Positions 18,006 through 37,901 are shown, counted from the first letter of the stretch. The stretch is 38,629 nucleotides of DNA from a virus (IMGVR_UViG_3300042485_004068:1-38629), one strand, 5' to 3'. Translations and numbers: made by a program. The notes: generated by a model not told the origin, from the sequence alone.

Positions 18006-18797
18006 ATGAAACTGCCATTAGGTAAAATCCAAAATTTACAAACTCAATTAGAGAATCACCCACTTTTAAACAATAACGTTATTAAAGACATTGACGGTCT
18101 TCGATTGTTTATGGAACATCATGTTTTTGCAGTTTGGGATTTTATGAGTTTAATTAAAGGACTGCAACATCATGTGTGTCCTAGCACCACATGCTGGACT
18201 CCGAGACATCACATACGTAGTGGATCGGCAAGATTGGTTAATGAAATTGTGTTAGCCGAAGAAACAGATATTGATCTCGACGGGGTGAGTTCTATAAGTC
18301 ATCATGATCTCTACTGCCAAGCAATGTTAGAAATTGGTGCTGATGCTAATTTAATAGAAGAATGGGTTGAATCAGTGGAAGTAAATGGATTTCATGGAGC
18401 TAAAGAATACTGTTCAGTGCCTACTGCAAGTCTTGAATTTATGGAAAAAACTTTTGAATTTATTGACTCTGGAGAACCGCATGTTATTGCAGCCGCATTT
18501 TGTTTTGGAAGAGAAACTGTTATTCCAAAGATGTTTGCCAGTCTATTAAAAAAATTACAATTATCTAATTTTGATTGCCCTAAGTTTTTTTATTATCTAT
18601 CTCGGCACATTGAAGTCGACAGTGAAAAACATGGACCAGCAAGTATAGCCCTCGTTGAGGATTTGTGTAATCATGATCCGGTACATATCCATGAAGCAGA
18701 GCAAGCGGCTCTAATAGCTCTTAAAGCAAGAATTAAACTTTGGGACGATCTACACAAACTAATTCAGGAACAATCGCATTTATATACTCATGACTGA
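18006..18797 (+). CDS. DUF3050 protein, heme-oxygenase-like di-iron fold
   Basis: The 263-residue protein carries the DUF3050 signature: FMEHHVFAVWDFMSLIKGLQ, then RLVNEIVLAEETDIDLDG and SHHDLYCQAML, with a second His/Glu-rich half (RHIEVDSEKHGPAS). DUF3050 proteins have the helical heme-oxygenase-like fold, and conserved Glu/His residues suggest a di-iron oxygenase or oxidase; the reaction is not known. I chose the ATG at 18006 over a GTG at 18000. The end overlaps the convergent radical SAM gene by 10 nt. Confidence 0.85.
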   Translation: MKLPLGKIQNLQTQLENHPLLNNNVIKDIDGLRLFMEHHVFAVWDFMSLIKGLQHHVCPSTTCWTPRHHIRSGSARLVNEIVLAEETDIDLDGVSSISHHDLYCQAMLEIGADANLIEEWVESVEVNGFHGAKEYCSVPTASLEFMEKTFEFIDSGEPHVIAAAFCFGRETVIPKMFASLLKKLQLSNFDCPKFFYYLSRHIEVDSEKHGPASIALVEDLCNHDPVHIHEAEQAALIALKARIKLWDDLHKLIQEQSHLYTHD

Positions 18798-20260
18798 GGA
18801 TTACCTATTAGTTCATAATAGTATTTGCGTAAGAAATTATTCCTCATTTGGCCCAATGCATTCCAATCAATGTCCATAACTTTATATTTTTGATATTCCT
18901 CTATATCTAAACCAAAGCTACCCACTGACATCAATGACCAAACATTAAGTTTTTGATACTCTTTGGCCTCATTGACTAATTGCAAGCGCCATTCTCTAGC
19001 GGTAATTGCATCGCAATATTCAGTTCTCCACACATATCTACCTTCTTTCATTTCCCAGGTAAAGCCGTACTTTTCTGCATCTCGATCAAATTCGCTACGA
19101 TGTTCGTCGTGAGCATCTTTATAAACTGTAAGATTTTGCCATACCCACGACGGTATTTTATTTTCCATTAGCCATTTATTTGTATTTTGACAATCTTCAA
19201 ACGTTTCGGGCGGTATCCCACAGATAAATGCCGAAGTGACTGTAATTTTCTCTTTCCATTTATCGTAATACAATTCTATTAGATAATCTTTTGAACTTTT
19301 ACCGATCCATGATTTACCAATCAATTTAGCAGCGTCTGAATTAAAACTTTCTATTCCAAGAAAAGCTCCCTTAAGACCGTTTTCTAATAACATATCAACT
19401 GACTCGGGATATGCAGCCAGTAAATCTATTCGTAAGTATGTTGCGTAATTAATTTTAAAAGGCAATGTTTTAACCATATCGGTGAACGCCCGAAGTCTAT
19501 CTTGATCAGCATTGAACGTATCATCTAGCATATAGTAGTTGGTAACACCCCAATTTTCGTAATTGCTGATAATTTCTTGTTTAACACATTCCATGTTCCG
19601 GTTAAAATCTCGTTTACTTTTTCCTATATATGGATATCGACAAAATTTACATTTAAAAATACAACCTCTCCCTAATTCAAGGGGCAATGTCTCTTTTGGT
19701 TGTATGTAATCATTTTTACTCCACTGATGATCGCATGATTCGATATCAAAAACTTTACCATCAGGTACTGCAAAACTTTCTCTAACAGTTCGATTGCCTT
19801 CAATAATTTCGAATTGAGGATGTGAAGTATCTTTAGACAAATGATCTAACAATGATAAGACATGCTGTTCTGTATGTCCCAAAAAAACATAATCAAACAA
19901 AGTTTTGTTTCTATGCAGTCTGCTAAAATGAGGGGCTGCTGGACTTCCTACAATTCGTTTAATTTGAGGGTATCTTTTTTTAATTGTAAAAAATACACTT
20001 TCTATTTTTTTAATTATTTCACCATTTGCTGGATCTTTAAGATCCATCATAACGCCTAATCCAATTATTTTAGTTTTTGGAGTAATATGCGATTCTAATA
20101 TTTTAATAATTTGATGTTCAGTAAAAAAGTGAATAAAGTCAACAACCTGTATATCGTACCCGTGCTTTCGTAAATACCAAGCAACTTGATAACTACCCAA
20201 GGGTCTAAAAATATTTGTTTTATTAACAGATACGCAGCAAGTTAGAAATATAGCATCCAC
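18788..20260 (-). CDS. Radical SAM enzyme with B12-binding-like N-terminal domain (I)
   Basis: Of 490 residues, 1-160 form a Rossmann-like domain as in class B radical SAM proteins (GSYQVAWYLRKHGYDIQVVD) but without the usual DxHxxG cobalamin motif. The radical SAM core starts at C200, C204, C207 (GRGCIFKCKFC), which would bind a [4Fe-4S] cluster. FLGIESFNSDAAKLIGKSW and AFICGIPPETFEDC follow. The C-terminal 100 residues are family-specific. The start is GTG at 20260, 5 nt after CATAAATA. It shares MVKTLPF and the overall layout with the radical SAM gene at 27153. The substrate is unknown. Confidence 0.87.
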   Translation of the reverse strand: MDAIFLTCCVSVNKTNIFRPLGSYQVAWYLRKHGYDIQVVDFIHFFTEHQIIKILESHITPKTKIIGLGVMMDLKDPANGEIIKKIESVFFTIKKRYPQIKRIVGSPAAPHFSRLHRNKTLFDYVFLGHTEQHVLSLLDHLSKDTSHPQFEIIEGNRTVRESFAVPDGKVFDIESCDHQWSKNDYIQPKETLPLELGRGCIFKCKFCRYPYIGKSKRDFNRNMECVKQEIISNYENWGVTNYYMLDDTFNADQDRLRAFTDMVKTLPFKINYATYLRIDLLAAYPESVDMLLENGLKGAFLGIESFNSDAAKLIGKSWIGKSSKDYLIELYYDKWKEKITVTSAFICGIPPETFEDCQNTNKWLMENKIPSWVWQNLTVYKDAHDEHRSEFDRDAEKYGFTWEMKEGRYVWRTEYCDAITAREWRLQLVNEAKEYQKLNVWSLMSVGSFGLDIEEYQKYKVMDIDWNALGQMRNNFLRKYYYELIGNPQS

Positions 20261-20265
20261 AGTAA

Positions 20266-20273
20266 TATTTATG
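20266..20273 (-). promoter_or_regulatory. Late-promoter-like CATAAATA, 5 nt before GTG start
   Basis: The octamer precedes TTACT and the GTG start of the radical SAM gene. It pairs back-to-back with the plus-strand octamer at 20288. Confidence 0.45.
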
Positions 20274-20287
20274 AATACTTTTGTTGC

Positions 20288-20295
20288 TATAAATA
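20288..20295 (+). promoter_or_regulatory. Consensus late promoter TATAAATA, 7 nt before ATG
   Basis: A perfect octamer followed by TTCTATC and the ATG at 20303, with no ribosome site. Confidence 0.6.
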
Positions 20296-20302
20296 TTCTA
20301 TC

Positions 20303-20776
20303 ATGTTCATTATCACTTTATTCGAATACATATTTTATTTCGGCCTCTGGACGTTTATTCTATACTGGATACATCGTGTAGGACATCAAGTAAAATTTTT
20401 ATCAAGTCTTCATCGACAGCATCATAAGTTTGTTAGAGAAAATACAATCACTTGGCATTGGTCAAATATATTTTTATTCAACGATAACTGGCCTAGTACA
20501 TTCGACTTCTGGGTCACAGAAGTGATTCCTACCGCAATATTTGTAACAATAACACAACAGTGGTGGTTGGGAATTGGATTTTATCTGTATGCAGCCTTTG
20601 TTCAAGAATGGCTAGAACACAATGATAATTTTAATTTTTACCCTATTTACACCTCGGGAAAGTGGCACCTACTGCATCACACACAGTATCCATGTAATTA
20701 CGGAATTGGTACACCTTTTTGGGATTGGATATTTAACACTAACAAAACACTAGATAACGCTAGCCATTCGATTTAA
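20303..20776 (+). CDS. Fatty acid hydroxylase/sterol desaturase superfamily membrane protein
   Basis: The 157-residue membrane protein has histidine boxes H24-H28 (HRVGH), H37-H41 (HRQHH), EHNDN around 105-109, and H122-H126 (HLLHH), the pattern that holds a di-iron centre in the FA-hydroxylase superfamily. Hydrophobic segments lie at about 4-22 and 72-101. It is short for the family but all His boxes are present. It could hydroxylate or desaturate a lipid, carotenoid or similar membrane substrate. The 3' end overlaps the convergent gene by 27 nt. Confidence 0.88.
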   Translation: MFIITLFEYIFYFGLWTFILYWIHRVGHQVKFLSSLHRQHHKFVRENTITWHWSNIFLFNDNWPSTFDFWVTEVIPTAIFVTITQQWWLGIGFYLYAAFVQEWLEHNDNFNFYPIYTSGKWHLLHHTQYPCNYGIGTPFWDWIFNTNKTLDNASHSI

Positions 20777-21124
20777 TCTATCTCGAACATTTAGATAGTC
20801 GTCAACTGGATATATTTCAATAGTTCTAGTCCATCCTTTTTCTGCAAAAAAATTCCTTGCACCGATGCTTATAGGATGATTACTGAATTCATTAAGATCT
20901 TCGGCAGTTTTAAAAAGAATATAGCTTTCTAATACACATCCGTTATCTTTTAAGATTAAAAATCTGTCAAGTGCTTTTCCTTGTCGAATAAAATCTCCGG
21001 CTAAAGCTCTTACTCCTGTACCTTTTTTACCGGATAGTTGTTCTTCCATATCTTTATAATAGAATTCATCAACGGTTTTTGCATTTCTATCTTTATGTGC
21101 AATAGTGACTTTTTGCATTATCAT
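20750..21124 (-). CDS. Small protein, possible ferredoxin-like alpha/beta-barrel fold
   Basis: The 124-residue protein contains LDRFLILKDNGCVLESYILF, TAEDLNEFSNHPISIGARN and RTIEIYPVDDY. The strand/helix alternation and the [FT]xxxExxxEFSxxP segment recall dimeric alpha-beta barrels, and a loosely similar protein is at 31148-31462. The function is not known. It starts at ATGATAATG overlapping the sulfotransferase stop, with starts possible at 21124 or 21118. Confidence 0.6.
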   Translation of the reverse strand: MIMQKVTIAHKDRNAKTVDEFYYKDMEEQLSGKKGTGVRALAGDFIRQGKALDRFLILKDNGCVLESYILFKTAEDLNEFSNHPISIGARNFFAEKGWTRTIEIYPVDDYLNVRDRLNRMASVI

Positions 21125-21867
21125 AATTCTAATTCCTTTAATATGTAGTCAGGCAATGCTGAATAATGATATTTTGAAAGATGTACTTTCTCTAAAATAA
21201 ATTGTTTTAGATCTTCGAAATTTTCAACATATTCGTCTATCGAGTCTTCTGTATAATTTGCAGAAAACTGTATTTCTTTTTTAAAGTACTCGTTGATTTT
21301 TTTAAAACTCATGTTGTTATTAATTAAATCTTCGAGATAAATTTTTTCAATTAAATTATTGTGATTATAAAATACATTTTCACTCCACCAATAATCTCTA
21401 CAGAGGCTGTTAAAAATAGTAAAAATTCTTCGTTGTTCCCTGTTTGATCCATCGTAATAAAAAGGATCAAATCTTTTTGATGACCCTTGAAAATCTTTGT
21501 TATCTATAGCTATTAACATACTCGCTAACACCTTCCAAATATTTTTTCTTAGAACTAAAAAAATAGCTAGTTGATTATGATCTATAATAGACGATATATC
21601 GCTGTGCCACGACAGAAAAGTTTTAAAACCAAAATACTCAATTTCTTTTTTTTCTTTATTATTAATTAGTTTTTGAATTATAGCATTGTGATCGAATATG
21701 TTTGACTTAAATGTGTTAGATAGTTGAACTATATTCGAAGGATTGAACGGTTCTGAATTTGTAAATTCTGGAATCCAAATGTTAGAATGACTGTTTAGTG
21801 TTTCACAAAAAAATGTAGTACCACTTCTTGGGGTGCCTAAAATTATAAAATTTGTTGAGTATGCCAT
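21121..21867 (-). CDS. PAPS-dependent sulfotransferase
   Basis: The 248-residue protein has the 5'-phosphosulfate-binding loop GTPRSGTTFF (11-20), and FLVLRKNIWKVLASMLIA matches the 3'-phosphate-binding region. IEKIYLEDLINN and the helical C-terminus fit sulfotransferases. It transfers sulfate from PAPS to an unknown hydroxyl or amine. A PAPS-forming kinase-like gene lies at 23160 in the divergent operon. The start stands 5 nt after a consensus late octamer. Confidence 0.85.
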   Translation of the reverse strand: MAYSTNFIILGTPRSGTTFFCETLNSHSNIWIPEFTNSEPFNPSNIVQLSNTFKSNIFDHNAIIQKLINNKEKKEIEYFGFKTFLSWHSDISSIIDHNQLAIFLVLRKNIWKVLASMLIAIDNKDFQGSSKRFDPFYYDGSNREQRRIFTIFNSLCRDYWWSENVFYNHNNLIEKIYLEDLINNNMSFKKINEYFKKEIQFSANYTEDSIDEYVENFEDLKQFILEKVHLSKYHYSALPDYILKELEL

Positions 21868-21872
21868 GACTT

Positions 21873-21880
21873 TATTTATA
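21873..21880 (-). promoter_or_regulatory. Consensus late promoter TATAAATA, 5 nt before sulfotransferase ATG
   Basis: A perfect octamer followed by AAGTC and ATG. No ribosome site is present. Confidence 0.6.
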
Positions 21881-21894
21881 GTGGGTTTTAATAT

Positions 21895-21902
21895 GCTAAA
21901 TA
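21895..21902 (+). promoter_or_regulatory. Late promoter GCTAAATA, 8 nt before ATG
   Basis: GCTAAATA precedes TTTTTGTT and the ATG at 21911 of the ATP-grasp gene. There is no ribosome site. Confidence 0.5.
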
Positions 21903-21910
21903 TTTTTGTT

Positions 21911-23143
21911 ATGAAAATTCTAATAATCGGAGATCACTCAATAAGTCATCACATATCATTGAGACTTTGCTCTGAACAACCAGTATCCAAAGTTTATCAT
22001 TACGGAGCGCCTACAAGTTTCCAAAAAGGAAAATACACTCCTATTGTGAATAATCGTGATACTTCGGCATTACATTATGCATCCTTATTAGATTTAGATT
22101 TAATAATCCCGTGTAATCAAATATACCAAATCAGCGATGAATATCAATCAACACTTAGTCGTTTAGGTATCCCAACATTACTCCCTTCAAAACAAAACGG
22201 ATATCTAGAATTATCAAAAATAAAATCTAAAACAATATTGCAGGAACTAGGAATTCCTACCCCTAATTACCAAGTATTTTCATATGCCAAGTTAGTTAAT
22301 TTATTTTTTGATATTCCCCGCCCATTTGTTTTTAAATTTGATCAAGATGCACGCCGAGGCCTGCAAACAGTTATTGTAAATGATGAAAACGTTATGGATG
22401 AATATGAGATATTAAAAAATTCCGGCAAACAACGTTTTTTGGCATTCATGTTAGGGGATTTTATAGATCAAAAATTTATAGTAGAATCCTTTATAGATAT
22501 TGTTCGAGAGTATTCGTATCATGTCTTGTGTAGTAAAGACAATCATGTTTATTTAGGATCGTCACGAGATTATAAAAAAAATAATAATGGAGATGTTGGA
22601 GTTAATACCGACGGTATGGGTTCTTACGGTGCAGTGGATGTCGACAACGTTGTAAATGAATACGTAATTAAAATTTTAAATTACCTTAAAAATAACAATA
22701 GTGCTTATGTGGGTATAATGTATCTTGGAGTTGCTCTGGATCAGACAGGTGTTCCGATGATATTAGAAATTAATACTCGGGCAGGTGATACAGAATTTCA
22801 TAATATACTCTCTCTTATTAACAATAATGTATCAGAACTATTCTATAATGCCGCTGTAAACAAACCTTTAGAACCAATAGAGTTTTCTAAAGATAAATCT
22901 GTAGCAATTAGAATTGTTAAATCCGATGCAGAAAATAAGAATGATCATTTTTTTACAAGATTTAAAAATATTCCATCGGACATTTGCGCATATCAGAGCG
23001 GTATTTTAAATGATAAATTTCAAGGAGTGTTGACCGCTAAGGCTGCAACTGTAGATCAAGCCAGTGATAAGATCTACTCTTATCTTAATAATATCGATAC
23101 ATCAAATTTTATTTTTCGATCAGACATCGGCTATCTTAAATAA
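21911..23143 (+). CDS. PurD-like ATP-grasp ligase (GAR-synthetase family)
   Basis: The 410-residue protein starts MKILIIGDHSISHHISLRLC like PurD. SSRDYKKNNNGDVGVNTDGM (217-236) matches the PurD signature RDHKR..DGDxGPNTGGMG with one Gly-to-Asp change, and GIMYLGVALDQ with LEINTRAGDTEF (285-296) matches the ATP-grasp metal site. PurD joins glycine to phosphoribosylamine, but divergence and island context allow another amine/carboxylate ligation. I chose the ATG at 21911, 8 nt after the promoter octamer; upstream in-frame starts would lie in the sulfotransferase promoter. Followed after 16 nt by the APS-kinase fusion gene. Confidence 0.82.
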   Translation: MKILIIGDHSISHHISLRLCSEQPVSKVYHYGAPTSFQKGKYTPIVNNRDTSALHYASLLDLDLIIPCNQIYQISDEYQSTLSRLGIPTLLPSKQNGYLELSKIKSKTILQELGIPTPNYQVFSYAKLVNLFFDIPRPFVFKFDQDARRGLQTVIVNDENVMDEYEILKNSGKQRFLAFMLGDFIDQKFIVESFIDIVREYSYHVLCSKDNHVYLGSSRDYKKNNNGDVGVNTDGMGSYGAVDVDNVVNEYVIKILNYLKNNNSAYVGIMYLGVALDQTGVPMILEINTRAGDTEFHNILSLINNNVSELFYNAAVNKPLEPIEFSKDKSVAIRIVKSDAENKNDHFFTRFKNIPSDICAYQSGILNDKFQGVLTAKAATVDQASDKIYSYLNNIDTSNFIFRSDIGYLK

Positions 23144-23159
23144 CTAAAAGGAAACAACT

Positions 23160-23954
23160 ATGACACAAAGAATTTTAATAATGGGTTTACCTGGGTCCGG
23201 TAAAACTTATCTTGCACAACACATTGTAGATCATCTACAAGCAGAAAAGAAAAGGGTAGGTTGGCTTAATGCTGACGATGTACGCAAGAAATATAATGAC
23301 TGGGATTTTAGCCACGAAGGGCGTATCCGCCAAAGTTTACGTATGCGAGAACTATCAGATAGCATGATAGATGTTGATTATGTTATCTGTGATTTTGTTG
23401 CTCCATTGGTTGAAATGCGTAATAATTTTAAAGCAGACTGGACTATATGGGTTGACACTATTCGTGAAGGTCGGTATGCAGACACTAATGCTATGTTCAT
23501 TGAACCCGAAGTATATGATTTCCGCATCACTGAACAAAAGGCAGAAAAATGGGCCGAGTTCGTTGCCGCACACATTATAGATAATCGTAGACGTCCTGTA
23601 TTTGATTGGAAAAAAGAAACTGTACAAATGTTGGGCAGATGGCAACCATGGCATGACGGACATCGTGCATTGTTTGAAAGATTGTTAGCCAAGACCGGGC
23701 AGGTAATTATTCAGGTGCGTGATGTACAAGGCTGGCAAGGAAGTAATCCGTTTGAAGTTGCTAAAGTTAAGGGTTTTATTAAACATGATTTAGATCCATT
23801 ATATCAAGGACAATATGAAATACAAGTGGTTCCTAACATTGTTCATATTGGTTGGGGCCGTGGTGTAGGATACACAAGTGGCGAAGAAACATTTGATGAA
23901 AAAGTAACTGATATTAGTGCTACAAAAATTCGTAAAGAATTAGGCTTAAAGTGA
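23160..23954 (+). CDS. APS-kinase-like / nucleotidyltransferase fusion
   Basis: The 264-residue protein begins with a P-loop (GLPGSGKT, 9-16), and LNADDVRKKYNDWDFSHEGR matches the substrate region of adenylylsulfate kinases, which make PAPS. From about residue 155 a HxGH-superfamily nucleotidyltransferase domain follows (GRWQPWHDGH at 159-168 and ISATKIR at 252-258), similar in logic to ATP sulfurylase or cytidylyltransferases. Kinase plus transferase resembles a miniature PAPS synthase, but phage homologues are not characterised here. AAAGGAA precedes the ATG. The 3' end overlaps the next GTG start. Confidence 0.82.
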   Translation: MTQRILIMGLPGSGKTYLAQHIVDHLQAEKKRVGWLNADDVRKKYNDWDFSHEGRIRQSLRMRELSDSMIDVDYVICDFVAPLVEMRNNFKADWTIWVDTIREGRYADTNAMFIEPEVYDFRITEQKAEKWAEFVAAHIIDNRRRPVFDWKKETVQMLGRWQPWHDGHRALFERLLAKTGQVIIQVRDVQGWQGSNPFEVAKVKGFIKHDLDPLYQGQYEIQVVPNIVHIGWGRGVGYTSGEETFDEKVTDISATKIRKELGLK

Positions 23955-24175
23955 ACAAGTATCACGTTAGATTCAACACCAAGCATAACGGTAGTCCGTT
24001 AGTTTGGCGAATCTTTGAAAATGGTGTGGAGCATCTAGCAACAGATGTTCGCATCATTGGAGAAACTTACACCGAGTGTACTCACGAATATGGTGAAACA
24101 AAATGGAATATTGCTTGCCAAGGACGTATGGTGTGGGCTGATCAAGTTGCCGTAATTGTGACGGGCAAAGATTAA
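23951..24175 (+). CDS. Conserved small phage protein, unknown
   Basis: The 74-residue protein (YHVRFNTKHNGSPLVWRIFE, ECTHEYGETKWNIACQGRM) resembles a small beta-rich protein common in T4-like cyanophages. It starts with GTG overlapping the upstream stop (GTGA), which indicates coupling. The stop shares the bases TTAA with the convergent SDR gene. Function unknown. Confidence 0.72.
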   Translation: MNKYHVRFNTKHNGSPLVWRIFENGVEHLATDVRIIGETYTECTHEYGETKWNIACQGRMVWADQVAVIVTGKD

Positions 24176-31493: not shown

Positions 31494-32397
31494 CGAGAGA
31501 TATATGTAAATCTTCTAAACTTCTATCATAATATCTTCTAAAAATTAACCCATTATTCTTGTCTGATAGAAAATTTTCAAATTCTGTTATCAAATTCATG
31601 CACGACTCAAATCCAGTTTTTTTCCCTCTTAAAACTAGATTAGGAAACGCTTCACGGTATCCAATAATTTTGGTAGAATGAACTCCTAGTTTCCCATAAT
31701 ATTGATCGTTAATCAACTTATTGAACCATTCGGTCTTAGTGAAGGCTAAGACTAACTCGGGTGTCCATTTCCACCATTCCATAACTGCTGGTCTATTCAA
31801 TGTTTTAATATATTTAGACCAACCAATCTCGTATTCCCAACATCGCATTAGCCATCCAGATCGTGTGCTGTAATTGTCGTCTACTCGAAACCATGACGGA
31901 TCACCAGCAGCGTAAATTGCAAGTCCGTCGACATAATCCATAAACTTCAGTTGCGGTAGAGCCTGTGCTTGGTCAACCTGTGCAATTTCGCTGATTTTTT
32001 CAGCATCATTTGTAAAAAAACTTTTAAGTCTAAAATCTACAATTTTGTAATCTACATTTAAACCCTTAACAATTTGTAAAGCATATTCTACATCGTAGGC
32101 ATTTATATTATCTTCATATTTAAAAATATAAGCAATGGGGTTAGCGCCTAATTCTTTAAATGTTCTAAGAGCAACATCACTATCTACCCCACCACTAAAC
32201 ATAACACATGGACGCATACCGGGATAATGATCTAAAATGCTTGAAGAATTATCGATTACACTTTGTTTAAAAGACCCTACAGATTTACTTGACCTAGTAA
32301 ATACCGTAGAAAACTTTTGATCGGGAGATGTTGACCGTTCGAATGATAAGTTATCGTACTGCCACTGATACCAATCATTTTCTGATGTATAGATCAT
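31489..32397 (-). CDS. PP-loop ATP pyrophosphatase (II), ExsB/asparagine-synthase-like
   Basis: The 302-residue protein has PP-loop SGGVDS (68-73) in CVMFSGGVDSDVAL. Later segments include VDYKIVDFRLKSFF, GLAIYAAGDPSWF and FPNLVLRGKKTGFES. It adenylates a substrate in the manner of N-type ATP pyrophosphatases; the substrate is unknown. The ATG at 32397 overlaps the desaturase stop (ATGA), so an earlier in-frame start at 32448 is unlikely. It is last in the operon unknown, desaturase, PP-loop. Confidence 0.8.
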   Translation of the reverse strand: MIYTSENDWYQWQYDNLSFERSTSPDQKFSTVFTRSSKSVGSFKQSVIDNSSSILDHYPGMRPCVMFSGGVDSDVALRTFKELGANPIAYIFKYEDNINAYDVEYALQIVKGLNVDYKIVDFRLKSFFTNDAEKISEIAQVDQAQALPQLKFMDYVDGLAIYAAGDPSWFRVDDNYSTRSGWLMRCWEYEIGWSKYIKTLNRPAVMEWWKWTPELVLAFTKTEWFNKLINDQYYGKLGVHSTKIIGYREAFPNLVLRGKKTGFESCMNLITEFENFLSDKNNGLIFRRYYDRSLEDLHISLV

Positions 32398-33191
32398 TTT
32401 TTTGCAATCAATTTTATTAACCAATAGGTAGGATCTAGTTCCCACCATCGGCGACCATAATTAGGATTACGACCTTCGCCATGATGATTGTTATGCCATG
32501 CTTCGCCGAGTATAATCGGAAACAACCAAGGCACGTTCACACTATCATCTTTAGTGTTATAATTTCTATAGCCTGCCCAAGGTATATGAGTGATGCTGGT
32601 CTGTATTAGAAAGCTATGTAGAGTAATAAATGCTGGAAACGCCAATAGATAGATCCATAAGTCTATACTAATTAATGCAACCAACAAATTAGTGATCCAT
32701 AGTATTTTTATGTAATGCTTGTGTGCAAACACCATGTCTGGATCTTGTAATAGGTCTACTACAGATCGAATACTTATAGCGTCTCTCTTAAACATCCACA
32801 GGATGTAGCTGTGCCAAAATCCATCTCGAGGACTGTGTGCATCACCTTCTCGGTCGGCATACCTATGATGGTATCCCCTATGAATACCTATCCAGAATAA
32901 AGGACTGCCTTGTCCTGCTAGTATTCCGAACCAAAGCAGTATTCTCTTGATCAATGGGTTAACACTAAATCCCTTATGTGAAAACAATCTATGATAGCCT
33001 GCAGACACACCTAGCATCTTAATACATACATAACCTATAAGAGTTGCAATATACCACCATGCAGGTGCAGAGCCGGCAATGATGCTGTATATTGCATACA
33101 CTCCTATAAACTGCATGGGGATTATTGACCCCCATAGATTGGTAAAGTGGAATGTATTTTTTACAAGTTGTTTTACCGGTGTTTTTTCCAT
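32394..33191 (-). CDS. Membrane fatty acid desaturase (delta-9 acyl-CoA desaturase-like)
   Basis: The 265-residue protein has the three di-iron histidine boxes: HRLFSH, HRGYHHRYAD and EAWHNNHH, plus the DAHSPRDGFWHSYILWMF segment typical of delta-9 desaturases and a C-terminal WWELDPTYWLIKLI. Several hydrophobic spans are present. It would introduce a double bond into membrane acyl chains with O2. It overlaps the upstream gene by 19 nt and the downstream PP-loop gene by 4 nt. Confidence 0.93.
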   Translation of the reverse strand: MEKTPVKQLVKNTFHFTNLWGSIIPMQFIGVYAIYSIIAGSAPAWWYIATLIGYVCIKMLGVSAGYHRLFSHKGFSVNPLIKRILLWFGILAGQGSPLFWIGIHRGYHHRYADREGDAHSPRDGFWHSYILWMFKRDAISIRSVVDLLQDPDMVFAHKHYIKILWITNLLVALISIDLWIYLLAFPAFITLHSFLIQTSITHIPWAGYRNYNTKDDSVNVPWLFPIILGEAWHNNHHGEGRNPNYGRRWWELDPTYWLIKLIAKK

Positions 33192-33718
33192 TGGGATAAA
33201 ATTGATTCGTTTCCGTTATATATTATTTTTTGCCAACACGTATCATCGCACTCGTTGGGACATGTTAGATACTTATAGTTATCTGTTTTAAATTCTAGAT
33301 TAAATCTATCAAGAAAATTGTTAATGCACCATTGTTCCCAATTATCAGTTTGTCTACTGATAAAATACAATTGACAATCTGCATTATTTTTTAACCAATT
33401 AATTTGACTTTGGGCACTACTTCCAAAGCTATCGCTCATAACTCTGGGGTAGGCAATCTTATTGCTGTGTTTCCATAGTCTGTTTAATATTCTATAAGCA
33501 CCGCTGGGCCAACTCTCCCTACTAGAAATGCTGGAACACATTTCGGGTTCGCCTAGATCATTAAAACAGATAGTTAGGGCAACCGCATTATTAAAGTTTT
33601 CTTTGCTGTAATTTTTCCAAAGACGATGACCACGATCTTGATATTGTTGCTCTCTAAGATTGTCAAACAATTGATCTAATGCAACATCAGTTCCGGGCAC
33701 CCAGGTAGTGGTCTTCAT
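33173..33718 (-). CDS. Unknown phage protein, possible GNAT-like fold
   Basis: The 181-residue protein (from the second Met) has VALTICFNDLGEPEMCSSIS, ESWPSGAYRILNRLWKH and QLYFISRQTDNWEQWCINNF. The arrangement resembles phage proteins sometimes grouped with acetyltransferase-like folds, but I cannot show an acetyl-CoA motif. Met codons at 33721 and 33718 are both possible; the second stands 4 nt after the GTTAAATA octamer. It is coupled to the desaturase by a 19-nt overlap. Confidence 0.6.
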   Translation of the reverse strand: MKTTTWVPGTDVALDQLFDNLREQQYQDRGHRLWKNYSKENFNNAVALTICFNDLGEPEMCSSISSRESWPSGAYRILNRLWKHSNKIAYPRVMSDSFGSSAQSQINWLKNNADCQLYFISRQTDNWEQWCINNFLDRFNLEFKTDNYKYLTCPNECDDTCWQKIIYNGNESILSQWKKHR

Positions 33719-33722
33719 CATA

Positions 33723-33730
33723 TATTTAAC
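33723..33730 (-). promoter_or_regulatory. Late-promoter-like GTTAAATA, 4 nt before ATG at 33718
   Basis: This is part of a 35-bp divergent gap holding two outward octamers. No ribosome site is visible. Confidence 0.4.
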
Positions 33731-33744
33731 GGTAAAAATGTTTG

Positions 33745-33752
33745 AATAAATA
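33745..33752 (+). promoter_or_regulatory. Late promoter AATAAATA, 4 nt before ATG
   Basis: AATAAATA followed by TTTC and the ATG at 33757. No ribosome site is present. Confidence 0.5.
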
Positions 33753-33756
33753 TTTC

Positions 33757-34464
33757 ATGAGAAGTCCAGCCCAGATAGAATCAATCAAATCAAAGGTATC
33801 TGATCCTTACGCAATTGAGGATTTTTTATCTGTTGACGACGTTGACTATCTTGTTAACTTGTTTAATTCTCAAAAAATTGAATCAAACAAAGTGTATAAA
33901 AATACGGGTCCGATAACTCTAGATATCAAACCCTATTTAGAAGATCCGATAGTAGCTAAAATTATAGATAAACTTGCCAAAGAACTAGGACCGTTTGAAA
34001 TAACAGCTGGATTTTTCTTTACAACAAATTACCCTCATATCATTCATAATGACGACACATTTGAATTGCCAGACGGGGTGTATAAAGGCATAACCATTCC
34101 ACTAAAAGCCTACGGATCAGATCGAACACCTAAGTTATGCTTTTTTGATCAATTTTACTTTCATGGCCCTGCCAAATTCTTTTACGGGGACAAGGACATA
34201 CCCACGTACTACAACAAACAGGTGTACGACTATAAAGATGTTGACGGCATATCAGATAACATGCTCATAGACGAGTCTACTAGAGTTTCTTATCTAACAC
34301 ATTTAAAGCCCAAGTGGCTTACAGGATTAACACTCTGGGGAACTCTAGATTGGCGTCCTACAAGTGTTTTAATTTTTGATAGCACACGATTGCACTGTGC
34401 CAGTGATTTTAGACAGCAAGATATCACATACAAATTGGGTATAAGCATTTTTACAAAAGTATAA
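33757..34464 (+). CDS. 2OG-Fe(II) oxygenase-like protein (C)
   Basis: The 235-residue protein has ligands H97 and D99 (HIIHNDDTFELP) and H213 (DSTRLHCASDF), with a beta-helix core (GITIPLKAY, PTSVLIFDSTRLH, YKLGISIFTKV). K226 may replace the usual Arg for 2-oxoglutarate. I chose the ATG at 33757 over an in-frame TTG at 33742 that lies inside the promoter. First of four consecutive beta-helix genes with gaps or overlaps of at most 4 nt. The substrate is unknown. Confidence 0.78.
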   Translation: MRSPAQIESIKSKVSDPYAIEDFLSVDDVDYLVNLFNSQKIESNKVYKNTGPITLDIKPYLEDPIVAKIIDKLAKELGPFEITAGFFFTTNYPHIIHNDDTFELPDGVYKGITIPLKAYGSDRTPKLCFFDQFYFHGPAKFFYGDKDIPTYYNKQVYDYKDVDGISDNMLIDESTRVSYLTHLKPKWLTGLTLWGTLDWRPTSVLIFDSTRLHCASDFRQQDITYKLGISIFTKV

Positions 34465-34465
34465 T

Positions 34466-34966
34466 ATGTTTCTTTGGAAATACATCGATATATCAAATGA
34501 AGAAATTGAAAATATAAAAAAATTATATCTAAATAATCTTCCAAACAATAATCATTTTTTTCAACCGATAGATATTGATATTTCTAATTTTCTAGGTTTG
34601 GAAGTTCAACGATTTGTGCTTATACAAGTTGAAGCTAATGCAGTCGGAAGAATACATACTGACTGGCGACCAACTGATTACGGAAATCAATTAGCACTTA
34701 ATATACCCTTGACAAATTGCGAAAAAAGTACTACTTCTTTATGGTCTAGTGATTACGATCCTCCCACCCAATATACAACCAACGGCCAGCCCTATAATTT
34801 TTTCAATCCCGACAGGTGTATTAAACTTTCAGAATTTAGATTGACAGCTCCTGTAATATTTAGAACTGACGTTCCTCATAGCGTAGATAACCCCACATCG
34901 GAGATTCGAAAAGCAATCAGTATTAGATTTAAAACAGATCCTTGGCATTTAGTAAATACACCATGA
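34466..34966 (+). CDS. 2OG-Fe(II) oxygenase-like protein (D)
   Basis: The compact 166-residue protein has H64 and D66 (GRIHTDWRPTD), H138 (TDVPHSVDNP) and R148 (IRKAISIRF), a complete HxD...H...R set for a 2OG oxygenase of the Asp/Asn-hydroxylase type. The start follows the previous stop by one base, and the stop overlaps the next ATG as ATGA. Confidence 0.78.
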   Translation: MFLWKYIDISNEEIENIKKLYLNNLPNNNHFFQPIDIDISNFLGLEVQRFVLIQVEANAVGRIHTDWRPTDYGNQLALNIPLTNCEKSTTSLWSSDYDPPTQYTTNGQPYNFFNPDRCIKLSEFRLTAPVIFRTDVPHSVDNPTSEIRKAISIRFKTDPWHLVNTP

Positions 34967-35580
34967 ACAACTATAGATATATAACAACTCCTAAAAATTC
35001 TATAAACGAATTAGAGTTCTTTACTGATACAGCTATTATAAAAGAACGATGCGCCTGTGGGTCGGGGTTCTGGCCAGGAAAATGGGGACAACATTCAACT
35101 ATTTTTACAGAAGAGTTTAAATTATGGTTATTACAATTTAATTGTAAAATTCTCAAAGCTGAGGCCTTTAGAGTATTTCCACATACTGCATTAGCATGGC
35201 ACAATGATACCAATGACGATCCTAATGCAGATGATCTAACTCTTAATTTTACCGCTAAAATAAATTTTATGTGGGGAGATTTACAGAACTGCTTTATGGA
35301 ATACGGCGAATTATCTAATTCCAAAACTTCTGGTCGAAAAATTTTTACAAATCAAAGAGGTCGAAGAGCCTATGTCTACGATCCAGCCGCAATGAAAATT
35401 GTTGAAAGATTTTCTCTTGAGAATACAGTACTAGTCAATCGCGGTCCAACTCATCGTGTTAGCAATGAATCCGATCAAGATTGGTTATGTTTAAGTTGTA
35501 TTATCATCGACAATGATACTGATAAACCCTTATTATATAGCAAGGGTATAGATTTATTCAAGTCATCCACTATTCTTTAA
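34963..35580 (+). CDS. 2OG-Fe(II) oxygenase-like protein (E)
   Basis: The 205-residue protein has H80 and D82 (ALAWHNDTNDDP) and H164 (VNRGPTHRVSNES). An N-terminal CACGSGFWPGKWG segment could bind metal or be structural. The ATG at 34963 overlaps the previous stop (ATGA), so I prefer it to an upstream TTG. The next start follows at 35582. The substrate is unknown. Confidence 0.75.
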   Translation: MNNYRYITTPKNSINELEFFTDTAIIKERCACGSGFWPGKWGQHSTIFTEEFKLWLLQFNCKILKAEAFRVFPHTALAWHNDTNDDPNADDLTLNFTAKINFMWGDLQNCFMEYGELSNSKTSGRKIFTNQRGRRAYVYDPAAMKIVERFSLENTVLVNRGPTHRVSNESDQDWLCLSCIIIDNDTDKPLLYSKGIDLFKSSTIL

Positions 35581-35581
35581 C

Positions 35582-36097
35582 ATGATTAACAAAAAATATA
35601 TTTTTAAACCTAATATGGAATTAGATATTCCTAGATTAAAAGAAATTGTTTTTAGAAATTTAAATATTGTTGAACCAGATCTAGCTACACATCAACGATA
35701 TGTAGAGAAAGAACCTTATCTAATCGAACTAAAAGAACGTTATCCTTTCTTATCTAGGTTATATAATATCTATCCTTCGATGCCTGGAATGACCATTCCT
35801 ATACATATTTGTCCAAATAGGGGTTGCGCATTAAATATACCTATTCAATACACAGAAGATTCCTATACAGTATTCTATGAGCCCAAAGATAAATTAGAAA
35901 TGACCTATAATATTCCTAGAATTTATCATATTATCGATTCCGAAATGTTAGAAGTATATAGATACACTTTAACAGAACCAGTTATAATGAATACCAAGCT
36001 ACCTCACGGAGTGTTTGGTGGACCAAAAATGACTAGAATAATTATGAGTTGGAGCATCCACGACGACTATGAAATTATGTTAAGTTGTATAACCTAA
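35582..36097 (+). CDS. Degenerate 2OG-oxygenase-like protein (F)
   Basis: The 171-residue protein has the beta-helix layout (PIHICPNRGCALNIPIQY and TEPVIMNTKLPHGVFGG, then R152), but the HxD position reads H75-I-C77, so the acidic iron ligand is a cysteine. It may be inactive, a partner of the neighbouring oxygenases, or a cupin with different chemistry. The C-terminus overlaps the convergent QueC-like gene by 18 nt. Confidence 0.68.
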   Translation: MINKKYIFKPNMELDIPRLKEIVFRNLNIVEPDLATHQRYVEKEPYLIELKERYPFLSRLYNIYPSMPGMTIPIHICPNRGCALNIPIQYTEDSYTVFYEPKDKLEMTYNIPRIYHIIDSEMLEVYRYTLTEPVIMNTKLPHGVFGGPKMTRIIMSWSIHDDYEIMLSCIT

Positions 36098-36646
36098 TTG
36101 ACTAAAGGCCCACGCTCGCTCTGTACATTGCCAACATACATTACACTGCCCTATTTTTTGTTCTGTACAGCTATGAGTAATATATATTAAGTCATCCTGT
36201 TTTTCTTTAAACATAATTTTTAAAATATCAGTTTTTAAAAGATTGACAAAAGGAAAAATTATTCTAGTGTCTTTTGATTCTTTATCTCGCTTTGGAGCAC
36301 CGGGTAAATCATTCAACTCTAGCGGATTTTGATTAATTCCATTAAACAGATAATCAACAGAATAATTATTAAAAATATCAACTACTGCGGTAGTACTTTG
36401 AAGTCTATGATGCGCTGTAGGATCTCCTACATAAATCGTATATGGTATAGACGTATTGAATTTTTTGTTAAAATGATCAATTATTTTATTCACATACAAA
36501 GATGATCCGTCAGTTTTATCTATAGTAAATGGTTGTACTTTTACGTTCGGTTGTTGATTTATAATTAGATATAATAATACTGCGCTATCTAGACCCCCAG
36601 AGAGCATGATTCCGTACGACTTATCTAGATTTAAGTTAAGTTCCAT
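36080..36646 (-). CDS. queC: QueC-like PP-loop protein with four-Cys zinc site (III)
   Basis: The 188-residue protein has PP-loop SGGLDS (16-21), a late TRIIFPFVNLLKTDI segment and C160, C168, C171, C174 (HSCTEQKIGQCNVCWQC), as in 7-cyano-7-deazaguanine synthase, which forms preQ0 from carboxydeazaguanine and ammonia. It is somewhat short for QueC (about 220-230), and the middle is divergent. A QueD homologue lies at 9629, but FolE and QueE are not visible. It could instead act on another carboxylate. Confidence 0.75.
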   Translation of the reverse strand: MELNLNLDKSYGIMLSGGLDSAVLLYLIINQQPNVKVQPFTIDKTDGSSLYVNKIIDHFNKKFNTSIPYTIYVGDPTAHHRLQSTTAVVDIFNNYSVDYLFNGINQNPLELNDLPGAPKRDKESKDTRIIFPFVNLLKTDILKIMFKEKQDDLIYITHSCTEQKIGQCNVCWQCTERAWAFSQLGYTT

Positions 36647-36664
36647 AATTTATTATTTGTAAAA

Positions 36665-36672
36665 TATTTATC
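36665..36672 (-). promoter_or_regulatory. Late promoter GATAAATA, 18 nt before QueC-like ATG
   Basis: The octamer reads toward 36646. The short AT-rich leader has no clear ribosome site. Confidence 0.4.
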
Positions 36673-36686
36673 TGCCAAAATTATTG

Positions 36687-36694
36687 TGTAAATA
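36687..36694 (+). promoter_or_regulatory. Late-promoter-like TGTAAATA, 5 nt before ATG
   Basis: TGTAAATA followed by TAATC and the ATG at 36700. No ribosome site is present. Confidence 0.45.
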
Positions 36695-36699
36695 TAATC

Positions 36700-37194
36700 A
36701 TGCTAGTTTACCCTTTAGAAGATATTAATAATTTTCACATTCTTGTGAATGAAATACAAACTTTGATTGAGGAAGTAGGGTTGAGCAACAACCAAATAAT
36801 TTGTCAACAACTTACACCTAATAGTGTAGACTGGACTACCGGAATAGGACGTATAGCTGAATTAGATCATCAAGATGAACACCTTTATAAATTTGTTAAT
36901 GAAAATCTTAAAGCGTCAAAATTAGAAGAACTAATTTTAAAATATGATGGATTTCGAACTAGGATAATGATCATGCCTCCGAAGCAGTGTTATAGTGTGC
37001 ATTCAGACCCAACTCCAAGAATACATATACCGATAGTTACTAATAGCCAATCATGGATGATATGGCCCTATTTAAAAGTATGCGAACAAATGCGACCTGG
37101 AAAAGTATATTGGGCAGATACTACTAAACATCACAGTTTTTTCAATGGCGGTGATACCGCTCGTATACATATTGTCATGGGTATAGAGGAATAA
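36700..37194 (+). CDS. Asp/Asn beta-hydroxylase-like 2OG oxygenase (G)
   Basis: The 164-residue protein has CYSVHSDPTPRIHIPIV (H101, D103), GKVYWADTTKHHSFFNGG (H144/H145) and R155 in ARIHIVMG, the pattern of aspartyl/asparaginyl beta-hydroxylases. It is likely active on a peptide or amino acid-like substrate by family analogy. It forms a two-gene operon with the next oxygenase, which starts 2 nt after its stop with GAGGAA upstream. Confidence 0.85.
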   Translation: MLVYPLEDINNFHILVNEIQTLIEEVGLSNNQIICQQLTPNSVDWTTGIGRIAELDHQDEHLYKFVNENLKASKLEELILKYDGFRTRIMIMPPKQCYSVHSDPTPRIHIPIVTNSQSWMIWPYLKVCEQMRPGKVYWADTTKHHSFFNGGDTARIHIVMGIEE

Positions 37195-37196
37195 CA

Positions 37197-37901
37197 ATGT
37201 CTAATGTTATAGTTCCTCCGGGTATTAGTGGGCAGTCAGCTATGTATGATCCAGCTAATGCTGATCTCGTAAATTTGTCTAATGAATTAATTTTGTCAAA
37301 TTTAGGAAACGTTGTTCCTCTTAATATTAAAATTAATTGTGAACAATTTATGAATGAGATTAAACCTTTTGATCAGGACTGGGTTGACTATTTGCCAAGA
37401 ACCGATAGACCAAATAATAGGCAGGCGCTGGCACTGACAAATTTACCAGGAACTGATCACAAAACAAATGTCAGTCTTGCACAAGCATCGTATGCTGCAA
37501 AACGGAAACTAAGCGAATTAGATTTTGGTCAACCGACAGACGTTTATAAGAACTGCCCGAGTCTCAGCAGTTTTTTAGATCAGTGGAATCCTCTTGGTAG
37601 AACATTTTTAGTTAAATCGAATGTAGGCGGATACTTTGTACCTCACAGAGATCATCCAAGCATGCCTAGAGATGTTTTTAGATTAATCGTATTTTTAAAC
37701 AATTGTAATCCTTTAGATTATGATTGGTTAATGGACGATAAAAAACTACAAATAGAAATGGGTAGAGTTTATTATATAAACACTCGATTGGCACACCGGA
37801 CTATTTCTTGGGTAGACAACAGTATACACCTCATTCTCAATGTGCCTTTTAACACAGAGAACATAAGCAAGGTAGTGGGTAAACTTTACCACACTCACTG
37901 A
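37197..37901 (+). CDS. 2OG-Fe(II) oxygenase-like protein (H)
   Basis: The 234-residue protein has GGYFVPHRDHPSMPRDVFRL (H150, D152), GRVYYINTRLAHRTISW (H200) and HLILNVPF in the strand that normally carries the Arg. The N-terminal 110 residues form an extra domain not seen in the other copies. It is last in the island before the tail-fibre gene; the convergent gap is 22 nt with no terminator visible. Confidence 0.78.
   Translation: MSNVIVPPGISGQSAMYDPANADLVNLSNELILSNLGNVVPLNIKINCEQFMNEIKPFDQDWVDYLPRTDRPNNRQALALTNLPGTDHKTNVSLAQASYAAKRKLSELDFGQPTDVYKNCPSLSSFLDQWNPLGRTFLVKSNVGGYFVPHRDHPSMPRDVFRLIVFLNNCNPLDYDWLMDDKKLQIEMGRVYYINTRLAHRTISWVDNSIHLILNVPFNTENISKVVGKLYHTH

Follow-up and report, generated by a model that had tools for sequence, protein, structure and literature searches.

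The viral window analysed here (IMGVR_UViG_3300042485_004068:1-38629, 38,629 nt) carries a hypervariable, low-GC cassette island that occupies a fixed locus in a lineage of large T4-related aquatic phages. The island consists of 27 ORFs of 74-548 aa filling positions 18000-37901. A first-pass annotation had described it as 24 genes for iron- and ATP-dependent tailoring enzymes and inferred one shared pathway; the domain calls hold and the catalytic motifs are mostly intact, while the gene count was too low. Because the locus stays constant while what it holds changes strongly, and only units of 2-4 genes are conserved, the data show modules that behave separately and not a single pathway. We consider it highly probable that this is a modular, exchangeable tailoring island. 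The genes lie on both strands in several runs, a layout that gives no sign of co-regulation and counts against our reading; they are as follows.

18000-18797, +: DUF3050, haem-oxygenase-like (Pfam PF11251, 3.1e-78); overlaps radical SAM 1 tail-to-tail
18788-20260, -: radical SAM 1, predicted B12-type (class B) fold (PF04055, 7.7e-11)
20303-20776, +: fatty acid hydroxylase-family membrane di-iron enzyme, FAH (PF04116, FA_hydroxylase, 1.5e-14)
20750-21124, -: u124, 124-aa protein without assigned family
21121-21867, -: sulfotransferase-like (PF13469, 1.1e-4, below cut-off; PRSGTT loop)
21833-23143, +: PurD-like ATP-grasp ligase (PF01071, GARS_A, 4.4e-20)
23160-23954, +: fusion of an APS-kinase-like N-terminus (PF01583, 1.1e-10) and an HxGH nucleotidyltransferase-like C-terminus
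23951-24175, +: 74-aa ORF, may be spurious; gap in the alignment with sister contig G001
24172-24936, -: SDR 1 (PF13561, 9.9e-44)
24903-25541, -: 2OG-Fe(II) oxygenase-like a (HVD...H; dN/dS 0.027)
25538-26491, -: Bug/TctC solute-binding protein, probably secreted (PF03401, 3.7e-38)
26499-27197, -: 2OG-Fe(II) oxygenase-like b, paralogue of a (HID...H)
27153-28799, +: radical SAM 2 (PF04055, 1.6e-13)
28799-29356, +: SDR 2, weak (PF00106, 8e-6, 25.9 bits against a cut-off of 26.6)
29356-30063, +: 235-aa protein without assigned family
30060-31151, +: PP-loop ATPase 1 (SGGLDS; no Pfam match)
31148-31462, -: 104-aa protein without assigned family
31489-32448, -: PP-loop ATPase 2 (SGGVDS; PF06508, 8.8e-7)
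32394-33191, -: FA_desaturase-family membrane di-iron enzyme (PF00487, 7e-14)
33173-33721, -: GNAT-fold acyltransferase-like (AF2 and Foldseek), adjoins the desaturase
33742-34464, +: 2OG-like c (HND...H)
34466-34966, +: 2OG-like d (HTD...H)
34942-35580, +: 2OG-like e (HND...H)
35582-36097, +: 2OG-like f, strongly constrained (HIC where HxD is expected)
36080-36646, -: short QueC-like PP-loop protein (SGGLDS; PF06508, 5.5e-9; phrog_1550, 2.2e-14)
36700-37194, +: 2OG-like g, Asp/Arg hydroxylase type (PF05118, Asp_Arg_Hydrox, 2.4e-5)
37197-37901, +: 2OG-like h, with a relative in the cultured phage Mosig (HRD...H)
37924-38628, -: tail-fibre gene bordering the island, truncated by the window end (PHROG tail fibre, 1.1e-6); 526 aa in G001

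Outside the island, Pfam and PHROG matches place a QueD-like gene at 9629-10114 and one glycosyltransferase at 7808-8620.

The DUF3050 gene had been recognised earlier, with a start at 18006 where we place it at 18000; its product scores 263 bits against a gathering score of 22.2, matches PDB 9vwb (5.9e-52) and is 98% identical in G001. Both radical SAM assignments stand, and the two proteins share about 31% identity over ~275 aa. Radical SAM 1 has the class B motif and the predicted overall fold of cobalamin-dependent enzymes (AF2 pLDDT 92; nearest PDB entries by Foldseek MgmA, OxsB, AprD4, TsrM and CysS); its B12-binding Pfam score is 16.6 bits, below the cut-off of 32.1. CxxxCxxC is found in 88/88 full-length family members, in a set whose fetching pattern already demanded part of the motif. 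The best NCBIfam match of radical SAM 1 is PhpK (1.6e-25, below cut-off), and a PhpK P-methyltransferase identity was rejected (89.5 and 80.8 bits against a cut-off of 600).

His boxes of the two membrane di-iron enzymes are intact in 8/8 (FAH) and 64/64 (desaturase) family members, and of the two SDRs one is strong and the other lies just under the Pfam cut-off. The sulfotransferase is better called sulfotransferase-like: the PRSGTT-type loop is present in 3/3 family members, and a PDB sequence search gave no meaningful match. The PurD-like ligase matches PDB PurD (7.4e-23); full PurD (GAR synthetase) was rejected, with GARS A at 72.8 bits above its cut-off, C at 20.9 against 34.8 and N not listed. 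For the APS-kinase fusion, the first half stood (42.2 against 21.1 bits; phrog_10255, 3.2e-46; PDB 2yvu, 8.4e-7; 90% identity in the relative G006), whereas the second half bears only a weak likeness to NMNAT-type nucleotidyltransferases (best PDB match E=0.053); a PAPS synthetase was rejected because no ATP sulfurylase domain is listed among the Pfam and PDB matches. The Bug protein has a hydrophobic, signal-peptide-like N-terminus, in line with the secretion proposed for it. SGGxDS was read in all three PP-loop proteins, and the motif of PP-loop ATPase 1 is present in 15/15 family members; the strict form occurs in just 11/25 members of one PP-loop sub-family, a count that goes against our reading. 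The QueC equivalog TIGR00364 was rejected for 36080-36646 (27.2 bits) and 31489-32448 (25.4 bits), the cut-off being 150.3. Seven HxD...H motifs were confirmed among the eight 2OG-like proteins, only one of which (36700-37194) has a Pfam match at E<=0.01; the eighth, described as a degenerate copy, does carry HIC but is not decaying, being 99.4% identical in G001 with a dN/dS of 0.023. One protein earlier counted among the small unknowns, at 33173-33721, has a GNAT-like predicted fold (AF2 pLDDT 86; best Foldseek GNAT 4.6e-5, TM about 0.5).

In G001, 25 of the 27 island genes are colinear at 76-99% amino acid identity, and one cassette has been swapped: where the window has PP-loop ATPase 2, G001 carries a different PP-loop gene together with a Rieske oxygenase. 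Purifying selection acts on every one of the 25 genes that can be compared (dN/dS <=0.21 in each, median 0.073), which argues that the island is more than a chance collection. Median dS between the two contigs is lower in the island (0.25) than in the flank (0.53; p=0.0012), and identity is 84% at 17-18 kb, rises to 95-97% over 18-21 kb and falls to 82% over 21-22 kb, a mosaic profile. Beyond the tail-fibre gene, G001 carries further enzyme genes to about 66.7 kb. Two observations in this comparison speak against our reading: the 74-aa ORF is absent from G001 and has no relative in any set searched, and the 235- and 104-aa proteins have relatives, in the sets searched, in G001 alone (76% identity for the latter).

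More distant relatives show how fast the content changes. In the 353-kb syntenic relative G006 the island lies at the same locus between conserved flanks, and G001 ORFs with at least 60% identity there number 38/54 in the flank and 6/40 in the island; in G011, again at the same locus, the counts are 21/54 and 2/40. Island GC is 0.336-0.367 against 0.391-0.433 elsewhere, and is lower in 7/7 phage contigs computed (11 fetched). The same families cluster within 30 kb, radical SAM excluded, above chance in 8/10 large viral contigs besides G001 (p<0.001), with p=0.026 in G016 and a non-significant 0.078 in G015, the latter counting against us. A tail fibre lies within or beside the island in G001, G006 and G011, but over 11 records only 3/6 tail-fibre N-domain matches fall inside islands, a figure that counts against our reading. 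The first-pass annotation had proposed a search for conserved co-occurrence, its idea failing if relatives carried these genes singly and scattered; since G001 is colinear, other contigs show clustering and pairs are conserved, that refutation is not triggered.

Which genes stay together was assessed in 50 non-redundant units against 1000 label shuffles, uncorrected for how many pairs were compared. PP-loop and Rieske genes are adjacent 8 times (1.4 expected), Bug and PP-loop (b) genes 8 times (2.1 expected), and desaturase and GNAT 6 times (1.3 expected), values reached by 0/1000 shuffles in all three cases. In a separate Rieske-anchored scan a PP-loop gene adjoins in 31/34 loci, and in 25/28 loci outside the shuffle set. 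The block FAH-u124-sulfotransferase-APS-kinase fusion is also present in G006, and u124 relatives with 53-54% identity sit inside the same block in G006 and L030-L032. Other pairings count against our reading: DUF3050 adjoins a B12-type radical SAM gene in only 15/51 viral loci, and radical SAM genes stand next to 2OG, PP-loop or desaturase genes no more often than in the shuffles. Adjacency of radical SAM and SDR is weak, 76/1000 shuffles reaching it.

The lasting enzyme pairs hint at small molecules made or altered by the phage. Overall, we lean somewhat towards a cassette island of small-molecule tailoring modules with a role in competition; that the product itself acts between phages, or between phage and host, is a serious possibility rather than a probability. 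Each unit would be an interchangeable biosynthetic module. PP-loop, ATP-grasp, APS-kinase-type and GNAT proteins may activate carboxylate, amine, acyl or sulfate groups or link them together; the 2OG, Rieske, desaturase/hydroxylase, DUF3050, B12-type radical SAM and SDR enzymes would then oxidise, desaturate or methylate the product, and the secreted Bug protein may bind a carboxylate substrate. The combined effect could be a varied small molecule, or a decoration of the cell surface or fibre, during infection, and competition could take the form of superinfection exclusion, of masked receptors or of an inhibitor. The likeliest function appears to be an exchangeable tailoring of small molecules or surfaces that serves phages in competition; competition fits better than core metabolism because of the rapid exchange at one locus and the edge tail-fibre gene in three related records. 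More speculatively, a class of large aquatic phages might carry native combinatorial small-molecule factories, modules being re-assembled at a fixed locus so that each phage has its own compound or decoration to beat other phages or the host. The modules named for such factories are PP-loop with Rieske, PP-loop with Bug, desaturase with GNAT, DUF3050 with B12-type radical SAM, and sulfotransferase with the APS-kinase type.

The best-surviving alternative is a permissive hypervariable locus gathering unrelated auxiliary metabolic genes, each cassette altering host metabolism alone (membrane fluidity, sulfur, purines) and none contributing to a common product. Strong content turnover agrees with it, as do, in the parts of the sources available, hypervariable regions of T4-like phages reported to hold such genes (PMC7029224) and an acyl-CoA desaturase of Lake Baikal viruses interpreted as a lipid one (PMC7678222). 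We nevertheless find it rather doubtful, given a class set that recurs in 10 other records, specific pairs above shuffles, the repetition of paralogues from a single class within a locus (eight desaturase matches in L059), and the lack of a PHROG match for 18 of the 20 proteins searched among the island's 27.

That all 27 genes yield one natural-product-like compound or modified lipid or nucleotide through a linear pathway is unlikely. It would suit 27 contiguous genes of related chemistry, the constraint on 25/25 comparable ones, the 25/27 retained in G001 and the four-gene run at 27153-31151 (+), whose neighbours touch or overlap by their coordinates. It is at odds with the 6/40 and 2/40 G001-island ORFs kept in G006 and G011, with the PP-loop cassette swap, with the conservation of small units only, and with L025, where the DUF3050 and radical SAM pair stands beside replication-like genes without other island families. 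Base modification employs 2OG and radical SAM enzymes, and the QueC-like and QueD-like genes of the window could be added to a scheme in which these and the PP-loop proteins modify phage DNA or tRNA bases; this is improbable, as no DNA-base transferase is among the window Pfam and PHROG matches obtained, the QueC equivalog cut-off is missed (27 vs 150 bits), and desaturase, FAH, sulfotransferase-like and Bug proteins fit poorly. A chimeric assembly, or a phage contig fused with bacterial DNA, might explain the fall in GC at the island and is hardly credible because separate records (G006, G011) share the locus, the junctions are identical in G001 and the radical SAM family was recovered at full length from a single bacterial record.

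The usual interpretation takes phage auxiliary genes singly, as boosts to host metabolism. Here enzyme pairs persist (PP-loop/Rieske, above) amid surroundings that are replaced at a single locus, as is also known for bacterial loci that govern surface antigens and natural products. Should the products prove real, viruses would be a source of enzyme chemistry that has been little explored, and defined enzyme pairs, together with the cultured phage Mosig, would make the role of T4-like hypervariable islands testable.

Among known systems, classical natural-product gene clusters share the clustering of tailoring enzymes and differ in having a scaffold synthase; no PKS, NRPS or terpene synthase is among the Pfam matches of the 27 genes, which counts against our reading. 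The Pseudomonas syringae mgo operon likewise places a DUF3050 haem-oxygenase-like protein (MgoB) in a small-molecule operon, but its partners in the available text of PMC3298696, an NRPS, an AurF-like N-oxygenase and a polyketide-cyclase-like protein, are not seen in the island. HTVC023P-type pelagiphages, also aquatic, have several non-orthologous 2OG-Fe(II) oxygenases near each other, though co-located with ferrochelatases, and the terms radical SAM, desaturase and sulfotransferase are absent from the text of PMC9599517. In Enhygromyxa salina (L214), DUF3050 (66% identity) and radical SAM (40%) genes lie tail-to-tail as in the window, on a bacterial contig of 66% GC; the radical SAM family, almost only viral in our scans, reaches E<=1e-40 in only 1/282 sampled genomes of that phylum.

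The nearest known system is the host recognition cluster (HRC) of pelagimyophages, although its location and glycosyltransferases are not found here. As excerpted from PMC7029224, it is a large, non-syntenic hypervariable island of T4-like aquatic phages that contains tail fibres, lies between VrlC and neck gp14, is marked by glycosyltransferases, carries different radical-SAM cassettes in two genomes, diverges gradually, and has a proposed role in coinfection avoidance. Our island is likewise hypervariable when related genomes are compared, and its flanks are conserved. It differs in its position, a weak neck-like match in G006 (6.6e-6) lying at 261 kb, about 170 kb from the island at 65-90 kb, and in its content, iron/ATP tailoring enzymes dominating with no glycosyltransferase Pfam match among the 27 genes. 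Mosig VrlC found no blastp match (E<=1e-4) in 11 records, a search that divergent homologues could escape.

The earlier statement that no known phage module has this combination must be qualified, as radical-SAM-bearing HRCs are in print (PMC7029224, in part) and Mosig EXVC030M (MT647606), a cultured Pelagibacter (SAR11) phage, has an enzyme cluster at about 39.6-74.6 kb. Unlike ours, this cluster sits between neck gene and VrlC, the HRC position, and the 33 of its proteins compared with the profiles gave no match to DUF3050, B12-type radical SAM, Rieske, Bug, PurD-like or APS-kinase fusion families; its GC (0.319 against 0.333 in the rest) is hardly lower, which counts against our reading. 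Its annotation lists a desaturase, two Asp/Arg-hydroxylase-domain proteins, several 2OG oxygenases, aminotransferases, an N-acetyltransferase and a taurine-dioxygenase-like protein, and two of three MoaA-like proteins have CxxxCxxC. With profile matches to desaturase (2e-45), 2OG-like h (2.1e-31), G_AT (2.1e-16) and 2OG-like g (1e-12), Mosig carries a related, smaller enzyme set around its tail fibres.

The island at 18000-37901 of the window is modular, its content is exchanged at a fixed site, its genes are constrained, and particular pairs of them are conserved. The window itself is a linear IMG/VR virus record of 38,629 bases, whose ORFs were called by longest-ORF rules with no gene finder. 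The ORF listing and Pfam scans over 18000-37901 bear out the domain inventory of the first-pass annotation, a mixture of radical SAM proteins, PP-loop ATPases, HxD...H oxygenases and other tailoring enzymes, and correct its gene count from 24 to 27. Read for motifs, seven proteins carry HxD...H and one carries HxC, and among the 20 of 27 island proteins searched, two have PHROG matches: the QueC-like protein and the APS-kinase fusion. The window's flank genes encode tail-fibre, ThyX, NifU-like, QueD-like and endonuclease proteins; ThyX matches a relative in Melnitz at 66%, and there are flank gene relatives in phage NCTB (46%, annotated as UV-endonuclease) and in PA5oct-like phages (31-32%).

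One close relative, the 94,777-base sister contig G001, was found by radical SAM searches. When radical SAM 1, radical SAM 2 or PP-loop 1 was scanned on its own, matches came from G001 only; the 2OG alignment scan matched at two places only, both in G001, and the PurD-like protein, scanned singly, found zero relatives. Order and orientation are kept between window and G001 for 25 of the 27 island genes, at 76-99% amino acid identity; the 74-aa ORF of the window is absent from G001, and the position of PP-loop 2 is held there by a different PP-loop gene (25% identical), overlapped by a Rieske oxygenase. In all 25 comparable genes dN/dS is at most 0.21 (median 0.073), and few of them are as constrained as the HxC copy (99.4% identical, dN/dS 0.023). 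The median dS is 0.25 in the island (25 genes) and 0.53 in the flank (23 genes; Mann-Whitney p=0.0012), and nucleotide identity rises from 84% at 17-18 kb to 95-97% over 18-21 kb and falls to 82% over 21-22 kb, a pattern that would be expected if blocks of the island had moved by recombination. The enzyme genes of G001 extend beyond its tail-fibre gene, up to about 66.7 kb, and there include the following:

ATP-grasp protein
second Bug (TctC-type solute-binding) protein
aminotransferase-like protein, a weak match
dienelactone-hydrolase-like protein
further 2OG-FeII_Oxy_5-like protein, below cut-off
third copy of the paired 2OG family
two SGGSDS proteins

Several single genes deserve separate mention. 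A 2OG-like protein at 35582-36097 carries HIC in place of HxD and yet is strongly constrained; it is possibly an altered-metal or non-catalytic paralogue. Immediately left of the island (17583-17771) lies a 62-aa histone H1-like protein of the Hc1 family (Pfam 52 bits, cut-off 23.5), from which the copy in the large record G006 (90207-90395) differs by one residue when compared by eye. For the QueD-like gene (window 9629-10114), identity of the G001 copy is 91% with the G010 copy but just 35-41% with those of nine other records, suggesting that it moved recently between distant phages. About 40 residues of the large tail-fibre protein (window 1-4425; G001 5974-7551) recur, at 50-55% identity, in two neighbouring G001 genes and are perhaps a repeated attachment domain. 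Further along G001, at 85667-92992, lie genes of curli type together with one for an adenylate/guanylate cyclase; they are about 27-47% identical to Melnitz or HTVC008M and are common to several large records. Melnitz and its curli genes are described in PMC9004378.

An alignment of both radical SAMs opened a wider set, in which 415 stretches matched and 325 encoded relatives; keeping the best 80 of these 325 gave 78 loci besides that of G001. By blastp of island proteins against locus ORFs, desaturases occur in 27 of these 78 radical-SAM-anchored loci, and PP-loop, 2OG, Bug, SDR, fatty acid hydroxylase (FAH), Rieske and other families in fewer. Ten large records were taken whole and searched with family profiles built in part from these same records, and families within 30 kb were compared with 5000 shuffles of ORF positions, with island borders set by eye and the radical SAM left out. 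Clustering exceeded the shuffles at p<0.001 in eight of the ten, and reached 0.026 in G016 and 0.078 in G015; the row for G001, being circular, was left out of these counts. For the first-pass annotation, relatives carrying these genes singly and scattered would have spoken against one pathway; as the families cluster within 30 kb in large records, the genes are not simply single and scattered. Four of 11 whole records (G006, G010, G013 and G016) gave matches to at least one phage marker among terminase, portal, capsid and sheath, and the phage status of the other seven rests on genes common with G001. Among recurring island proteins, named by reading, some resemble nitronate monooxygenase/FMN enzymes (G015 35648-36607, G011 93236-94129, G002 70724-71596), and further families resemble extra 2OGs, GNATs and SPASM-like radical SAMs.

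Exchange of content at a fixed locus is seen in G006 (353 kb). To either side of the island this record is colinear with G001, and its TerL, portal, capsid and sheath proteins are related to those of T4-like phages (31-37% identity with Melnitz or Mosig). G001 ORFs with a relative at least 60% identical in the corresponding part of G006 number 38 of 54 in the flank and 6 of 40 in the island stretch; G011 has such relatives for 21 of 54 flank and 2 of 40 island ORFs, where the 40 island ORFs, with borders set by eye, include tail-fibre and phosphoesterase genes. One block is kept between G001 and G006 with its relative orientation unchanged, namely FAH, u124 (an unknown 124-aa protein), sulfotransferase and APS-kinase fusion, at 67, 53, 49 and 90%, respectively. 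Island GC is lower than that of the rest of the record in all seven records computed, out of 11, and in Mosig it is slightly lower (0.319 vs 0.333 elsewhere). Tail-fibre modification as the main role was rejected, as 3 of 6 fibre N-domain matches lie inside islands (borders by eye), a weak association.

Adjacency of families was assessed over 50 non-redundant units with 1000 label shuffles. The pairs PP-loop/Rieske (8 cases), Bug/PP-loop b (8) and desaturase/u182, a GNAT-fold acyltransferase-like protein (6), stood above all 1000 shuffles; DUF3050/radical SAM (6) was reached in 36 and SDR/radical SAM (5) in 76, and adjacency of radical SAM with 2OG, PP-loop or desaturase showed no excess, being reached in at least 228. 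Because orientation differs within pairs, it is linkage that has been kept, and not one inherited operon. In a Rieske-anchored scan, 43 loci came down to 34 once near-duplicates had been removed, along with loci that had no ORF best matching that family's profile, and PP-loop is adjacent in 31 of the 34 and within the 5-kb flanks in 33; among the 28 loci new to the adjacency test, six overlapping places, all with PP-loop, having been removed, it is adjacent in 25. The best 80 of 88 DUF3050 loci, reduced on the same two grounds, left 51, with radical SAM adjacent in 15 and other neighbours in 36. A constant pairing of DUF3050 with radical SAM is thus ruled out, the early impression of one having arisen because the loci had been anchored on radical SAM; the pair defines a sub-group. 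At one locus (L025) the pair occurs without other island families, followed by genes resembling phage replication genes. DUF3050 is itself common in viral contigs, its 88 loci being mostly without radical SAM.

At the protein level, the model of radical SAM 1 has a pLDDT of 92, and among the solved structures closest to it are MgmA, OxsB, AprD4, TsrM and CysS; the best NCBIfam family for radical SAM is PhpK, far below cut-off. The predicted fold of u182 is GNAT-like (Foldseek best E 4.6e-5, TM about 0.5). Iron-ligand patterns are kept in all members of the sets examined (desaturase 64/64, FAH 8/8, Rieske 8/8), and the strict PP-loop motif is kept nearly throughout in four of six sub-families (15/15, 13/16, 16/16 and 8/9), with 11/25 and 17/21 in the other two. 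DUF3050 has a solved relative, 9vwb, and a published model gives it a di-iron fold resembling haem oxygenase (PMC4520260). MgoB, encoded in the mgo operon, is a match to DUF3050 (PMC3298696), and a figure legend on an Antarctic cyanobacterium names a DUF3050 gene along with genes from a nitrilase cluster in which there is a radical SAM gene (PMC9716671).

Judging from these families elsewhere, the PP-loop and ATP-grasp enzymes would activate carboxylates or amides, the GNAT would acylate, and tailoring would fall to the iron enzymes, SDRs and radical SAMs. Sulfate could be supplied by the APS-kinase type enzyme and passed on by the sulfotransferase; the APS-kinase fusion has no recognisable ATP sulfurylase. 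Turnover and position suggest a product under changing selection, like surface or competition traits. The first-pass annotation inferred a shared pathway; that all 27 genes belong to one is the less likely interpretation.

In a bacterial genome scan with one exact peptide pattern, which relatives without that pattern escape, 30 loci were found, and the sole full-length radical SAM (40%) is in Enhygromyxa salina; all others are partial, most at no more than 26% identity. The Enhygromyxa salina locus (L214 9710-12481) has DUF3050 (66%) tail-to-tail with radical SAM, arranged as in the window, and this pair was possibly gained from a phage or donated to phages. In the phylum of this bacterium, one of 282 sampled genomes has a match to this radical SAM at E<=1e-40. 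Within that scan and those 282 genomes of one phylum, the radical SAM family is largely viral.

Among cultured phages, tblastn gave zero matches for both radical SAMs, DUF3050 and the Rieske of G001, 10 for the PurD-like protein (about 24-28% identity) and three for the desaturase (Mosig and two Acinetobacter phage MD-2021a records, about 29-32%). At E<=1e-4, tblastn matched none of the island enzyme ORFs of G001 in either Melnitz or HTVC008M, and the matches of these phages to G001 fall on the tail fibre at the island edge and on some of the flank genes. At class level only, the inventory (sterol-desaturase type, Rieske, 2OG, SDR, sulfotransferase, APS kinase) resembles that of cyanobacterial saxitoxin clusters; the island is not so assigned, a PKS-type scaffold gene being missing from the Pfam matches. 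Co-location of 2OG oxygenases with ferrochelatase has been reported (PMC9599517). No description of such islands in large phages was found in print, within literature of suitable licence.

The pelagimyophage host recognition cluster (HRC) is a hypervariable island that lies between VrlC and gp14 and contains tail fibres as well as glycosyltransferases; its radical-SAM cassettes differ between two genomes, and coinfection avoidance has been proposed as a role (PMC7029224). Membership of the HRC is rejected for the present island on the grounds of position and glycosyltransferases, a judgement for which divergent VrlC or neck genes could escape detection. The cultured Pelagibacter phage Mosig EXVC030M carries, at the HRC position, an enzyme set related to that of the island but different, which goes undiscussed in the accessible text of its announcement (PMC7892664). 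The likeness to the HRC is that the present island is a hypervariable locus too.
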